A stretch of DNA of 64,000 nucleotides from an uncultured Geobacter sp. (lineage in GTDB: Bacteria; Desulfobacterota; Desulfuromonadia; Geobacterales; CAIOGM01): positions 1 to 64,000 of the forward strand of contig CAIUWK010000018.1 in NCBI GenBank assembly GCA_903902855.1. The letters are read 5' to 3'. The first letter of the stretch is position 1. Each line of letters begins with the position of its first letter. Below are positions 26,936-59,851 of this stretch, piece by piece. Made by a program: the position numbers and the translations under genes. The notes beneath the pieces are model-generated. The model was not told the origin of the DNA. It searched no databases and saw nothing but the letters and a program-made list of their open reading frames with translations.

Positions 26936-27012
26936 GAGAAACAGGTGAGGGGTCAGAGGTCAGAGGTCATAGGCCATAGGTCATAGGTTAGAGGTTATCG
27001 GTTAAGGGCGAG
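26933..27012. repeat. GGTCATA/GGTTAGA 7-nt-period array
   Basis: About ten units of GGTCATA, GGTCAGA, GGTTAGA and close variants, starting at the stop codon of the ydcF-like gene and ending one nucleotide before the S23 gene fragment at 27013. Arrays of this family recur at 29683, 31417, 31966, 33836 and 59764, and as reverse complement (CCCCTAA/CCTGACC) at 30098, 32260 and 33741. Confidence 0.8.
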
Positions 27013-27117
27013 ATGGTTGCTGGGTTTCGTGAGTTGAAGGTGTGGCCGCGGGCGAAGGATCTGGCTGTACTCATTTGCCGGATTACCGACGCCGGCGGAA
27101 TTGCCAGGGATTTCTGA
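27013..27117 (+). pseudogene. Truncated four-helix-bundle (S23/IVS) protein gene
   Basis: The 34 codons read GFRELKVWPRAKDLAVLICR then ITDAGGIARDF and stop. This is the first third of the intact S23-like protein at 29722-30114. It is preceded by the same GGTCATA-type array as the other two copies. It is too short to fold as a four-helix bundle. Confidence 0.75.
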
Positions 27118-27143
27118 CTGATTGTTTATCTCGTCGGTTCAGG

Positions 27144-27488
27144 GTTTCCTCTGTGATACCCTGCGACCTCGGCGGTAAGAAGAGGTTTTCAAAGGCATTA
27201 ACCGCGGAGGACGCTGAGGAACGCAGAGGAACATCAACAGCCGGACTAATTGTTTATCTCATCGGTTCAGGGTTTCCTCTGTGGTAACCTGCGACCTCGG
27301 CGGTAAGAAAAGGTTTTCAAGCATTAACCGCGGAGGACGCGGAGGGACGCAGAGGAAAGACTGAAGTAGAAGCTGTTGGATTGTCTCCGGCTTTCAAGGT
27401 TTTCCTCTGCGTTACCTTGTGTCCTCGGCGGTAAGAAAAGGTTTTTACAAGCATTAACCGCGGAGGACGTTGAGGTACGCAGAGGAAA
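27144..27488. repeat. Three tandem hairpin units upstream of the GxxExxY gene
   Basis: Units of about 88 nt start at 27144, 27272 and 27400, an exact 128-nt spacing. Each has a left arm like TTTCCTCTGCGTTACC...TCCTCGGCGGTAAGA, a loop AGGTTTTCA...GCA, and a right arm TTAACCGCGGAGGACGC...GTACGCAGAGGAAA that is its near reverse complement (about 34 nt each). Spacers of about 40 nt are themselves related. A fourth left arm starts at 27528, again 128 nt on, and leads into the gene. Confidence 0.88.
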
Positions 27489-27527
27489 GACTGATGCAGA
27501 AGCTATCGGTTTGTCTCTGGTATTCAA

Positions 27528-27549
27528 GGTTTACATCTTCGTTACCCGC
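27528..27549. repeat. Left arm of the hairpin unit that carries the GxxExxY gene
   Basis: GGTTTACATCTTCGTTACCC-type sequence is a worn copy of the left arm seen at 27400. It sits 128 nt after the previous unit start and directly before the ribosome site of the gene. The matching right arm is at 27968-28000. Confidence 0.7.
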
Positions 27550-27569
27550 AGATTTTAAGGAGAATAATC

Positions 27570-27947
27570 ATGGAACTCAACGACATTACAGCGATAATAA
27601 TTGATGCTGCCATGAAGGTCCACTCCCGACTCGGGCCCGGATTACTCGAAAGTGCCTATGAATCGTGTCTGAAGCACGAGTTGCAGCAACGCCGGTTATT
27701 CGTGACTAGTCAGGTAACCGTGCCTATTGTTTATGACGGAGTTATGATTGACGCCGGTTTCCGTGTGGACCTTATGGTGGATGGCAAGGTAATTGTTGAA
27801 CTGAAGGCGGTAGAAAAGATGAATCCGTTATACGAAGCTCAGCTCTTGACCTATTTGAAATTGAGTGGTCTCAAGGTCGGTCTTCTCATAAATTTCAATG
27901 TGCTGCATCTTAAAGATGGGATTAAGCGGATAGTAAACGACCTGTAA
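27570..27947 (+). CDS. GxxExxY protein (PD-(D/E)XK-like nuclease fold)
   Basis: A 125-residue protein of the GxxExxY family (TIGR04256). The name-giving motif is in GPGLLESAY (Gly24, Glu27, Tyr30). FRVDLMVDGKVIVELKAV (Asp67, Glu77, Lys79) gives the D...ExK signature of PD-(D/E)XK nucleases. No activity is established for the family as far as I know. A strong ribosome site, TTTTAAGGAGAATAATC, precedes the ATG. The gene lies exactly between the left arm (27528-27549) and the right arm (27968-28000) of one hairpin unit in a tandem array, so it is carried inside a repeat copy. Confidence 0.88.
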   Translation: MELNDITAIIIDAAMKVHSRLGPGLLESAYESCLKHELQQRRLFVTSQVTVPIVYDGVMIDAGFRVDLMVDGKVIVELKAVEKMNPLYEAQLLTYLKLSGLKVGLLINFNVLHLKDGIKRIVNDL

Positions 27948-27960
27948 CCTCAAAGTTTTC

Positions 27961-28395
27961 ATAGCATAAACCACGGAGGGCGCTGAGGTGCACAGAGGAA
28001 CATCAACAGCCGGACTAATTGTTTATCTTGTCGGTTCAGGTTTTCCTCTGTGGTACCCTGCGACCTCGGCGGTAAGAAGAGGTTTTCATAGAAATTAACC
28101 GCGGAGGACGCGGAGGTACGCAGAGGATAGACTAAGCCTGAAATCTTTTCGGTTACACCTCTTGGTCTCAAGCTTTTCCTCTGCGTTACTCTGCGTCCTC
28201 TGCGGTAAGAAGAGGTTTTCATAGAAATTAACCGCAGAGGACGCGGAGAAACGCAGAGGACAGACTAAGTCTGAAATCTTTTCGGTTACACCTCTTGGTT
28301 TCAAGCTTTTCCTCTGCGTTACCCTGTGTCCTCGGCGGTAAGAAAAAGGTTTTCACAGGCATTAACCGCGGAGGTCGCGGAGGTACGCAGAGGAA
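27961..28395. repeat. Right half-unit and three hairpin units downstream of the GxxExxY gene
   Basis: A right arm (AAACCACGGAGGGCGC..., 27968-28000) resumes the repeat just after the gene stop, followed by the same spacer found after unit 1 (ATCAACAGCCGGACTAATTG). Full units then start at 28040, 28174 and 28308, spaced 134 nt. The last ends 60 nt before the pglE-like start. Confidence 0.87.
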
Positions 28396-28454
28396 GGCAA
28401 AGGCTGAAAGCTTAAAGATGTTTTATCTGCATATTGAATACGAGGAATATCATA

Positions 28455-29690: not shown

Positions 29691-29735
29691 GCCATAGGTC
29701 ATAGGTTGGAGGTCATGGGTTATGGGTGGCGATGG
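29683..29735. repeat. GGCCATA/GGTCATA array before the S23 gene
   Basis: Seven-nt units run from the stop codon of the pglE-like gene to the start region of the S23 gene; the last unit, GGTTATGGGTGG, overlaps its ATG (29722). The array after the gene is in inverted orientation. Confidence 0.78.
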
Positions 29736-30114
29736 ATTCCGTGAGTTGAAGGTTTGGCAGCGGGCGAAGGATCTGGCTGTACTCATTTACCGGATTACCG
29801 ACGGCGGCGGAATAGCCAGGGATTTCGGTTTGAAAGATCAGATCCGTCGTGCTGCGGTTTCAGTCCCCAGCAATATCGCGGAAGGTGATGAGCGTGACAC
29901 CAACAAGGATTCCGTCCGTTTTCTCTTTATCGCAAAGGGCTCACTGGCAGAGGTGATAACTCAAACGATTATCGCCAACGAAGTCGGCTATATTAACGAT
30001 GTGGACCGTAGTCACATCGAGCAGGAATGTGAAGTTCTCGGCAAGATGCTCGGCTCCCTCATCAAAGCCCGTTCCGCCCCGCCTCAAAAAGCCGGCATGA
30101 CCCCTGACCCCTAA
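29722..30114 (+). CDS. Four-helix-bundle protein (S23 / 23S rRNA intervening-sequence family)
   Basis: A 130-residue member of the S23/IVP family, with FRELKVWQRAKDLAVLIYRI, GLKDQIRRAAVSVPSNIAEG, RFLFIAKGSLAEVITQ and YINDVDRSHIEQECEVLGKMLGSL in the usual order. Members fold as pentameric four-helix bundles; function is not known. Some are encoded inside 23S rRNA intervening sequences, but no rRNA is near here. It is the only intact copy of three in the window. Arrays of 7-nt repeats bracket it in inverted orientation; the upstream array reaches into its start and the downstream one supplies the last codons (TPDP) and the TAA stop. Confidence 0.85.
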   Translation: MGGDGFRELKVWQRAKDLAVLIYRITDGGGIARDFGLKDQIRRAAVSVPSNIAEGDERDTNKDSVRFLFIAKGSLAEVITQTIIANEVGYINDVDRSHIEQECEVLGKMLGSLIKARSAPPQKAGMTPDP

Positions 30115-30153
30115 CCCCTAACCCCTAACCCCTAACCCCTAACCCCTAACCCC
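30098..30153. repeat. CCCCTAA 7-nt array after the S23 gene
   Basis: Seven near-perfect CCCCTAA/CCCCTGA units, the first giving the C-terminus and stop codon of the S23 gene. This is the reverse complement type of the array at 29683-29735. It is followed at once by the 51-nt element at 30155. Confidence 0.85.
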
Positions 30154-31724: not shown

Positions 31725-31975
31725 AGTCGTGTATGACACTCGATGTTGTTGCGGTTACACCATTACCTGATTTCATGCTAGATCTTGTTTTTGCAAATGG
31801 GGAGAAGCGTCGGTTCGACATGAAACCTCTGCTCACCATGAATCCTTGGAGACGGCTTGCTCACTCACAATTGTTTGAGCGCGTACGAGTTGATTATGGC
31901 ACTGTGGTCTGGCCGGGTGAGTTGGATGTTGCGCCGGAAACACTCTACGAAGATTCGGTGATAATTAGGTCATAG
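31721..31975 (+). CDS. DUF2442 domain protein
   Basis: An 84-residue protein with the DUF2442 pattern: VVAVTPLPDFMLDLVFANGEKRRFDMKPLL, then FERVRVDYGTVVWPGELDVAPETLYEDS. DUF2442 genes commonly follow DUF4160 genes and the pair has been suggested to be toxin-antitoxin-like; that is not proven. Start is ATG 31721 (or 31733). The final codons and TAG stop (AGGTCATAG) come from a GGTCATA-type array. Confidence 0.8.
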   Translation: MKSCMTLDVVAVTPLPDFMLDLVFANGEKRRFDMKPLLTMNPWRRLAHSQLFERVRVDYGTVVWPGELDVAPETLYEDSVIIRS

Positions 31976-32063
31976 GCCAGAGGTTAGAGGTTAGAGGTCA
32001 TAGGTTGTAGGTCAGAGGTGAGAGGTTATAGAAACAGGTTAGAGGTTGGAGGTCATAGGTTAT
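31966..32063. repeat. GGTCATA/GGTTAGA array before the broken S23 copy
   Basis: About twelve 7-nt units with one interruption (GAAACAGG, also present at 26939), running from the DUF2442 stop into the ATG of the S23 copy at 32062. The counterpart in inverted orientation follows at 32260. Confidence 0.8.
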
Positions 32064-38481: not shown

Positions 38482-39530
38482 AGATATCTATCATTACCGC
38501 CACTCGCAACTGCGCCGCCACCGTGGCCCACTGCATGAACTCCCTCCGGCAGCAGACCTATCCCCACATCGAGCATCTCATCATCGACGGCGCCTCCACC
38601 GATGACACGCTGAAGATAGTTCAAGGTTTAACGGATAAGGTTCAAGGTTCAAGGACGAAGGTTCAAGGTTCAAGGTTCAAGGTTAAACCCCTTTCTTCCC
38701 CAGTCTTCGATTATGATTTACCCGCAGTTCCCGCAGTTCCCGCTTCCCCGGTCCCCGGTCCCCGGTCCCCAGTCCCCGGTCCCCGGTCCCCATTCTCCGC
38801 TTCCCCAGTCCCCGCTTCCCCGGTCCCCGGTCCCCGGTCCCCGGTCACCGTTCTTCTAAGCGAGCCTGACAACGGCATCTATGACGCCATGAACAAGGGG
38901 ATAGCCCTTGCCACCGGCGACATCATCGGCATCCTCAACGCCGACGATTTTTATGCGGATTCCCGGGTGTTGGCAAGGGTGGCGGCTGTTTTTGAAGATC
39001 CAGCGGTCATGGGCTGTTACGGGGATCTGGTATATGTCAACGATGCGAGAAACAATGGACAATGGACAATGGACAATGGGCAATGGATAGTGGACAATGG
39101 GCAACGGAAAACTGACAATTGTCAATTATCAATTGTCAATTGTCAATTGCCTCTCCACCGTTACTGGAAGGCCGGAAGTTTTGACCATACTCGCTTTGCC
39201 TGGGGGTGGATGCCGCCGCACCCCACCTTCTTTGTCCGGCGCAGCGTGTATGAACGGTACGGAACGTTTCGCCTGGATATGGGGTCGGCTGCCGACTACG
39301 AGCTCATGCTCCGTTTTCTCCTGAAAGAGCGGATACGAGCCGCCTATATCCCTTCCGTGCTGGTGGCCATGCGAACGGGGGGGGCCAGCAATGCGTGCCT
39401 GAAGAGCCGCCTGCGCGCCAACCGGATGGACCGTCGGGCCTGGAAGGTGAACGGTCTCACCCCTCTCCCCTGGACGATTCTGTGCAAGCCGCTGCGCAAG
39501 CTGTCACAGTGGTTTGTGAAAAACTGTTGA
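38478..39530 (+). CDS. Glycosyltransferase family 2 with two in-frame repeat insertions
   Basis: A 350-residue GT2 of the WcaA/colanic-acid type. The fold is clear: ISIITATRNCAATVAHCMNS, IDGASTDDTLKIVQ, then SEPDNGIYDAMNKGIALATG, the DxD region ILNADDFYAD, and HPTFFVRRSVYERYG. Two stretches do not belong to the family. Residues 50-124 are repeats (KVQGSR units and SPVPGPR units) set between the nucleotide loop and SEPDNGIYD, which are normally joined by about ten residues. Residues 193-224 are NGQWTMDNGQW and DNCQLSIVNCQL units. Both insertions keep the frame. The stop TGA lies in a CTGTTGAAGCG repeat. Whether the enzyme still works is unknown. Confidence 0.83.
   Translation: MKISIITATRNCAATVAHCMNSLRQQTYPHIEHLIIDGASTDDTLKIVQGLTDKVQGSRTKVQGSRFKVKPLSSPVFDYDLPAVPAVPASPVPGPRSPVPGPRSPFSASPVPASPVPGPRSPVTVLLSEPDNGIYDAMNKGIALATGDIIGILNADDFYADSRVLARVAAVFEDPAVMGCYGDLVYVNDARNNGQWTMDNGQWIVDNGQRKTDNCQLSIVNCQLPLHRYWKAGSFDHTRFAWGWMPPHPTFFVRRSVYERYGTFRLDMGSAADYELMLRFLLKERIRAAYIPSVLVAMRTGGASNACLKSRLRANRMDRRAWKVNGLTPLPWTILCKPLRKLSQWFVKNC
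38625..38849. repeat. Insertion 1 in the glycosyltransferase: GGTTCAA and GTCCCCG arrays
   Basis: 225 nt (75 codons). First GGTTCAA 7-nt units (38640-38685), then GTCCCCG/CTTCCCC 7-nt units (38747-38849), joined by CCCGCAGTTCCCGCAGTTCC. Both families lack stop codons in the frames used, and the length is a multiple of three. Confidence 0.85.
39054..39149. repeat. Insertion 2 in the glycosyltransferase: ACAATGG and TCAATTG arrays
   Basis: About 96 nt (32 codons): five ACAATGG-like 7-nt units followed by five TCAATTG-like units, the two halves being partly complementary. It lies between VYVNDARN and PLHRYWKAGSF of the transferase. Confidence 0.83.
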
Positions 39531-40033
39531 AGCGTTGGTATGAAGCTGTTGAATCGTTGAACTGTTGAATTGTTGGTATGAAACTGTTGAAGCGTTGAAT
39601 CGAAGGTAACAGGCCAGCTCAATGCAGGTGCGCGACTTTCGTAACCCCTCCTGTCCTCCCCCCTTCGGCTCCCTTCGACTTCCCTTCAACTTCGCTCAGG
39701 GACCACGCTCAGGGCAGGCTTGACCCAAGGGGAGGGACGTGCTGAGAGAATCCGGCAGAGATGGTCCCCCCTCTTGAGACAAGAGCGGGCCAGGGGGAGT
39801 TATGATGACCGGGGTGCAGGAGCGCTGAATAGTTACAATCGAAAAAACAGTTCCTCGATTCAACAACTCAACGATTCAACGATTCAACAACTCAACAACT
39901 CAACAACTCAACAATTCAACAATTCAACGATTCAACAGTTCAACAAGCACTAACCCCCTTTCCTTTCTCTCCCGGTCGGTGGTATCATGAGGACCTTTTT
40001 CCTCACCACCCCGGGAGTGATCGACCATATACC
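39520..40033. repeat. 500-nt gene-free region with inverted 8-nt-period arrays
   Basis: TGTTGAAGCGTTG/GTTGAATC units (39528-39602) begin at the stop codon of the glycosyltransferase; the complementary CAACGATT/CAACAACT array runs at 39853-39953. In between is a CCCTTCGACTTCC...CGCTCAGGG dispersed element (39665-39715). The two arrays could pair into a long stem. The sequence 39970-40033 leads into the wecA-like gene. No gene is present. Confidence 0.8.
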
Positions 40034-51720: not shown

Positions 51721-52014
51721 CGGCGGGAAGACTGTTGAATTGTTGAATCGTTGAATCGTTTTATTGTTGAATTGTTGAATTGTTGAATCATTGAATCGTT
51801 GAATCGTTGAATCGTATGATTGTTGAAACGTTGAGGCTCTTGCAAAGGAATTTCCGTTCAACACCTCAACACCTCAACACCTCAACACCTCAACAATTCA
51901 ACATTTCATCAATTCAACATTTCATCAATTCAACATTTCAACGATTCAACATTTCAACGATTCAACATTTCAACATTTTAACATTTCAACAGCTCAACAG
52001 CAAAACGGTTTCCC
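51721..52014. repeat. Inverted 8-nt-period arrays between wzm and wzt
   Basis: GTTGAATT/GTTGAATC units run at 51733-51833 and the complementary CAACACCT/CAACATTT units at 51858-52002, filling nearly the whole 294-nt gap. The RNA could form a stem of many tens of base pairs between two genes whose products work as one transporter. No ribosome site of normal strength is seen before the wzt ATG. Confidence 0.85.
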
Positions 52015-59763: not shown

Positions 59764-59851
59764 GTGAAAGGTTAGGGGTCAGGGGTTAGAGGTTAGGGGT
59801 GAGAGGTTAGGGGTGAGGGGTTAGGGGTGAGGGGTTGGGGTGAGGGGTGAA
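59764..59851. repeat. GGTTAGG/GGGTGAG 7-nt-period array between asnB and a glycosyltransferase
   Basis: About twelve units of GGTTAGG, GGTCAGG and GGGTGAG fill the gap and run into the start region of the next gene; GAGGGGTGAA just before ATG 59852 may serve as its ribosome site. Same broad family as the array at 26933. Confidence 0.8.

Follow-up and report, generated by a model that had tools for sequence, protein, structure and literature searches.

How does a small nuclease-like gene come to stand inside a tandem array of hairpins, and what is its relationship to them? The question is raised by a 64,000-nucleotide stretch of the genome of an uncultured Geobacter sp. (contig CAIUWK010000018.1, positions 1 to 64,000; hereafter the window), in which an initial annotation had described both a hairpin array and a GxxExxY-type gene within it. 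An arm scan, hairpin folding and profile matches confirm the two. The array is composed of seven left (L) and seven right (R) arms of ~31 nt that alternate in inverted orientation, in the order L R L R L R L* gene R L R L R L R, where L* denotes the degenerate L4. The features are as follows, with arms placed by the arm scan unless another source is given.

27129-28413, no strand assigned: whole array, arms plus gene (arm scan)
27146-27176, minus strand: left arm L1
27201-27231, plus strand: right arm R1
27274-27304, minus strand: left arm L2
27327-27357, plus strand: right arm R2, with an exact genome-pattern match at 27328-27354
27402-27432, minus strand: left arm L3
27457-27487, plus strand: right arm R3, the closest intact R arm 5' of the gene
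27515-27547, minus strand: degenerate left arm L4 plus leader, immediately 5' of the gene (aligned locally with units 3 and 7, score 20)
27570-27947, plus strand: GxxExxY gene, 125 aa, predicted PD-(D/E)XK nuclease (TIGR04256, PF13366, invariant residues, model)
27952-27969, plus strand: unit end or loop sequence AAAGTTTTCATAGCATAA after the gene (aligned to the L-R gaps of other units)
27970-28000, plus strand: right arm R4, the first arm 3' of the gene
28043-28073, minus strand: left arm L5, the closest L arm downstream of the gene
28098-28128, plus strand: right arm R5
28176-28206, minus strand: left arm L6
28231-28261, plus strand: right arm R6
28309-28339, minus strand: left arm L7
28365-28395, plus strand: right arm R7

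Six complete hairpins are present (27146-27231, 27274-27357, 27402-27487, 28043-28128, 28176-28261 and 28309-28395), and all six of these L-R pairs fold as single-stranded DNA far better than dinucleotide shuffles (z of -4 to -11). An 18-nt arm core is found eight times in the window, each time within the array, against a chance expectation of 0.1; Rfam gave no matches in the window. The left arms recur with a period of 128 nt before the gene, as annotated, and of 133 nt after it, where 134 nt had been given. The fourth left arm proposed in that annotation is present but degenerate, since it can be aligned to other units only over about 27515-27547. On the 3' side of the gene, positions 27952-28025 align with unit 1 over its loop, right arm and spacer (score 55), and the claim that the same spacer follows R4 and unit 1 therefore stands. 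Pairwise identity among the array units is only 66-85%, so the array does not derive from a recent tandem expansion.

The gene at 27570-27947 encodes an intact member of the GxxExxY family, identified in a profile search with TIGR04256 (150.5 bits versus a cut-off of 35, E 2e-44, profile positions 2-116 of 116) and PF13366 (145.9 bits versus a cut-off of 22, E 9e-43). Profile matches of the window protein are limited to these two, with no match to a Y1 tyrosine (HuH) transposase. The PD-(D/E)XK residues are intact, in the catalytic pattern D67, E77-x-K79 and Q91xxxY95; the GxxExxY motif, D67, K79, Q91 and Y95 are invariant in 34 relatives, and E77 is found in at least 90% of them. None of the solved structures is matched by sequence. 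An AlphaFold model of the protein (pLDDT 94.5) has as its top Foldseek matches the lambda-type exonuclease LHK-Exo (3sz4) and the Cas4 protein SSO0001 (4ic1), each with a probability of about 1, an E value just above 1e-3 and a TM score of about 0.5. On the strength of the modeled fold and the conserved residues, the window protein is likely an active nuclease. It has in common with lambda exonuclease, Cas4 and RecB-type nucleases the D-ExK-QxxxY pattern and the predicted fold, and differs from them as a minimal, stand-alone protein of 125 aa that is tied to repeat arms. The three GxxExxY proteins encoded in the window's own genome are 40-51% identical to one another, and the window protein is ~66-70% identical to proteins from other families and phyla; this combination suggests old lineages or an outside origin, and the divergence of the paralogs argues against recent gene copying. 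Carriage on plasmids or phages was considered and rejected, since relatives are encoded in only 8 of 72,556 plasmid records and in a single viral contig, where the gene is also flanked by arms.

We drew 80 loci from genome contigs and, in 97 genomes of the window's order, about 90 more. Association was scored as an inverted match of at least 12 between the upstream and downstream 260 nt of flank, with flank pairs 1 kb farther out at the same loci as control. Arms at other GxxExxY genes, for which the initial annotation had proposed a search, are the rule: matching inverted arms flank 133 of the 144 distinct genes with enough flank (92%), versus 0 of 138 control pairs. A stricter first pass found arms at 84% of genes, versus 1% of control flanks and 1% of shuffles, and cross pairs, made of an upstream and a downstream arm from different genes, match in only 13%. 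The 11 low scorers are mostly truncated genes or carry visibly weak arms; arms seem to be lacking at L098 and L172. Armed genes occur in Acidobacteria, Planctomycetes, Chloroflexota, Bacteroidetes, cyanobacteria and the window's order, and the other two GxxExxY genes of the window's own genome lie within similarly built inverted repeats of other letters (ACCACGGAGGCACGGAG and CCACGAAGGACACGAAG). The association of GxxExxY genes with inverted arms is family-wide. Exact matches to the arm pattern CCRCRRAGN{1,3}CRCRRAGN{1,4}CRCRRAG number 64 in the own genome and 37, 85 and 146 in three congeners, and the reversed pattern, used as control, has none in any of the four. Since the arms are repetitive and purine-rich, one might suppose that low-complexity intergenic DNA of this composition yields inverted matches near many genes by chance; the far-flank, shuffle, cross-pair and reversed-pattern controls refute this supposition, and we regard it as almost certainly wrong.

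Each arm is built of tandem units of ~8-10 nt, usually three and sometimes four, commonly CNCRRAG plus a linker. The purine-rich strand is the one that points to the gene, R and L arms are reverse complements, and R lies upstream and L downstream at 109 of 113 genes. Arm letters are lineage-specific (CGCAGAGGA, CACGGAGA, CACGAAGGA, CGCAAAG, CGCAGATGA, CAGGGAT and others), and the two arms of any one gene agree in letters although lineages differ. Arm similarity drops with protein distance (Mantel rho 0.67 with a permutation maximum of 0.18, a signal that partly reflects the common descent of Nostoc orthologs), and the correlation is 0.44 among pairs with a protein distance above 0.3. These sequence comparisons indicate that the arm dialects co-diverge with the protein, which makes recognition directly testable by dialect swaps in vitro. 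Among the mismatches between the paired arms that flank genes, G-U-compatible changes in the sense RNA are not overrepresented (128 versus 163), so that the arms look conserved as DNA; this disfavors an RNA stem as the selected feature.

Gene-less relatives of the element, as the initial annotation supposed, are found genome-wide, and they reveal the extent of the unit. In three sister genomes, R...L spacing is bimodal, with 36 pairs at 54-245 nt, four at 404-420 nt, and none at 246-403 nt or 421-1500 nt. A GxxExxY gene lies inside all four of the long pairs, and the 36 short pairs are gene-less; the dispersed gene-less units and the gene-bearing ones thus form two size classes. The outer ends are marked by TTCAAAGGTTTT-like sequence outside both arms (24 units, 48 ends), such that terminal inverted repeats, made up of the arms plus outer TTCAAAGGTTTT, are present at both ends. 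The L-R loops of the window array, 24 nt in length, contain this same TTCAAAGGTTTT-like end sequence; the dispersed unit is therefore R-L, and an L-R loop is a junction between units. The original placement of the gene in the loop of one unit is to be revised in this respect; under either reading of the units, the gene interrupts the array between L4* and R4. The enzyme genes are single, distinctive and unamplified with the repeats (three genes versus 64 arms in the own genome).

We consider it reasonably probable that GxxExxY genes and their flanking arms belong together as the two components of a single repeat-element system, similar to REPIN/RAYT, with a PD-(D/E)XK nuclease as the cognate enzyme; gene and arms resemble a kind of miniature mobile DNA and its enzyme that had not been linked before. 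REPIN/RAYT systems likewise have a gene between inverted palindromic repeats of its own kind, dispersed gene-less doublets, arrays beside the gene and an intergenic location, with several dialects per genome and single distinctive genes (PMC3116915). The two are unlike in the enzyme, which is a PD-(D/E)XK nuclease here and a Y1 HuH transposase (TnpA-REP) there, and in the arms, which here have three tandem units of ~8-10 nt and another sequence; movement, moreover, is inferred here. RAYT itself was rejected as the mover, as none of the 15 Y1_Tnp/RAYT genes of the genus has such arms nearby. MITEs with an autonomous parent are also comparable, being short units with inverted ends, and the present system has gene-less (~80-270 nt) and gene-bearing (~450 nt) forms; it differs from them in having neither a DDE transposase nor a demonstrated target duplication, and in that its gene-bearing copies are old single lineages rather than recent copies.

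The nuclease is a plausible mobilizing enzyme, a protein that would bind the arms, cut DNA and move the units. Each unit may be written as AAAACCTTTGAA-[R arm]-inside-[L arm]-TTCAAAGGTTTT, where most units have a short, gene-less inside and a few carry the nuclease gene inside or adjoining the arms. The lambda-exonuclease/Cas4-like nuclease would recognize its own arm dialect, most likely in hairpin or cruciform form or via the tandem units, and cut or trim DNA at the recognized arms. Cutting could then lead to the copying of arm-bounded units into new intergenic sites and to their amplification into arrays like that of the window, in a manner analogous to the presumed mobilization of REPINs by the RAYT transposase. 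A broader proposition is that GxxExxY nucleases drive a widespread form of miniature mobile DNA by a new route, without transposase or reverse transcriptase, in which the three-unit arm code differs from lineage to lineage, each nuclease reading its own and spreading mostly gene-less units through many phyla; we put this forward tentatively, as a conjecture that is less likely than not.

The distribution of gene-less arms also bears on a different explanation, in which the hairpins form a repeat family of their own, mobilized by other means, and the nuclease is a hitchhiker akin to a homing endonuclease, which uses the arms as landing sites and as homology. Two related genomes (G022 and G054, genus g12) carry about 80 exact arms each and no GxxExxY gene at E 0.001, and for their congener G050 the count is 92 arms and one such gene; arms without a gene mean either that arms outlive the gene or that there is another mover. 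Dialects B and C in the own genome are likewise without a GxxExxY gene, other arms are nested within dialect A units, and gene-less and gene-bearing forms of one dialect share a site in sister species (see below), all of which a passenger gene would accommodate. Such a passenger would leave unexplained, on the other hand, why arms are found at nearly every GxxExxY gene with letters that track the protein lineage, and why genomes with the gene are richer in arms (median of 8.5 per genome versus 1 in those without, P 0.006); the obvious alternative movers, the Y1/RAYT genes of the genus, lie apart from the arms. We therefore judge a passenger gene unlikely, if still a serious contender.

Comparison of loci with and without the element, suggested in the initial annotation, yielded orthologous occupied and empty sites, the exact ends of which are blurred by intergenic divergence. 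The interval that separates the methylmalonyl-CoA mutase gene from the epimerase gene (mcm-mce, named by eye from the translations) contains a dialect A gene element in all four genus members, and in three of these the inverted repeat is perfect over 30 nt; in two genomes of another family, a gene with dialect B arms occupies this interval, and in genomes of other genera the interval is only 10-250 nt long and the element is absent. One dialect A hairpin is found in the own genome (G000) and in G003 and is absent from G002. At another site, the hairpin of G000 and G003 is of dialect A and that of G002 of dialect D, and G001 has an unrelated one. A fourth site has a gene-less C hairpin in G000, a gene plus C hairpins in G003, and a truncated gene plus a C hairpin in G002; at a further site the gene is present in G002 and G003 and absent from G001. 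Presence and absence thus vary between sister species, and the occupied, gene-less and empty versions of these sites fit gain and loss. At an intergenic identity of 80-90% at best, the comparison showed neither a transposition event nor a target-site duplication, and gave no exact junctions. Separately, the same intergenic sites hold different hairpin families (A, D, heptamer and other palindromes) in sister species (L302/L319/L305 and L371-L381), which could reflect an insertion hot spot or functional replacement, the latter meaning function rather than mobility.

Function is central to a further reading, that the arms are cis-acting host sites, bound by a regulator or nucleoid protein or serving as mRNA 3'-end or processing hairpins, which are kept for host regulation and which the nuclease gene merely carries. 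In Geobacter metallireducens, 21 "class 2" pairs of three tandem TCTCCGTS[Y] sequences on opposite strands were annotated as putative binding sites of a global regulator (Aklujkar and others, PMC2700814), and a given intergenic site often holds a hairpin of some kind in sister species as well. The published consensus corresponds to dialect A, with the same opposite-strand arrangement and variable distance; the text consulted treats the pairs as regulator sites and makes no link to a nuclease gene or to mobility. Host sites of this kind are hard to reconcile with presence and absence between close species, with different dialects at one site and with the lack of G-U bias in gene-flanking arms, and would not explain why, across many phyla, the gene between the arms always belongs to one nuclease family; we consider this reading improbable.

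Non-random multicopy intergenic sequences have also been described in G. bemidjiensis (PMC2996986). In the open literature, which we covered in part, we found no paper that ties these sequences or the G. metallireducens pairs to GxxExxY, and a description elsewhere is possible; the GxxExxY family itself receives passing mentions only, and the arm sequences returned no relevant match. For a large, uncharacterized nuclease family, the arms represent a candidate natural substrate, and the GxxExxY protein is in turn a candidate enzyme for Geobacter intergenic palindrome families noted more than 15 years ago without one. The gene-arm pair would also be a further case of the REPIN/RAYT arrangement, unrelated to the first.

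Several other repeats accompany these elements. A second palindrome (ACAGGGATATACAGGAT...; AACAGGGATATACAGGAT...ATCCTGTATATCCCTGTTAAT) is nested inside several dialect A units, at loci L276, L281, L289, L290, L293 and L294; letters like these also flank GxxExxY genes at loci L166, L170, L178 and L179. All four 23S-rRNA-IVP genes (four-helix-bundle, TIGR02436) of the own genome, at loci L249-L252 (window 29722-30114; G000:C47:51576, C26:18125 and C18:32092), are situated between inverted heptamer or octamer arrays (AGGTCAT, AGGTTCA and TTGAATCG), the copy at 29722 having the weakest arms (score 11.5). The anatomy is as at GxxExxY genes, with a different protein family and repeat grammar. The 23S rRNA intervening sequences similarly comprise a small ORF within a hairpin-forming insert; they are distinguished by a four-helix-bundle ORF in place of PD-(D/E)XK and by heptamer or octamer repeats, and the own-genome IVP copies are intergenic, outside rRNA. 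A truncated relic of a four-helix-bundle IVP gene lies immediately 5' of the window array (27010-27120), with AGGTCAT heptamers upstream of it at 26943-27004. Finally, further 7- and 8-nt tandem arrays of the AGGTCAG, GTTGAATC and TTCAACAT types are found across the window at 30100-30153, 31967-32062, 38619-39946, 51734-51999 and 59770-59848.
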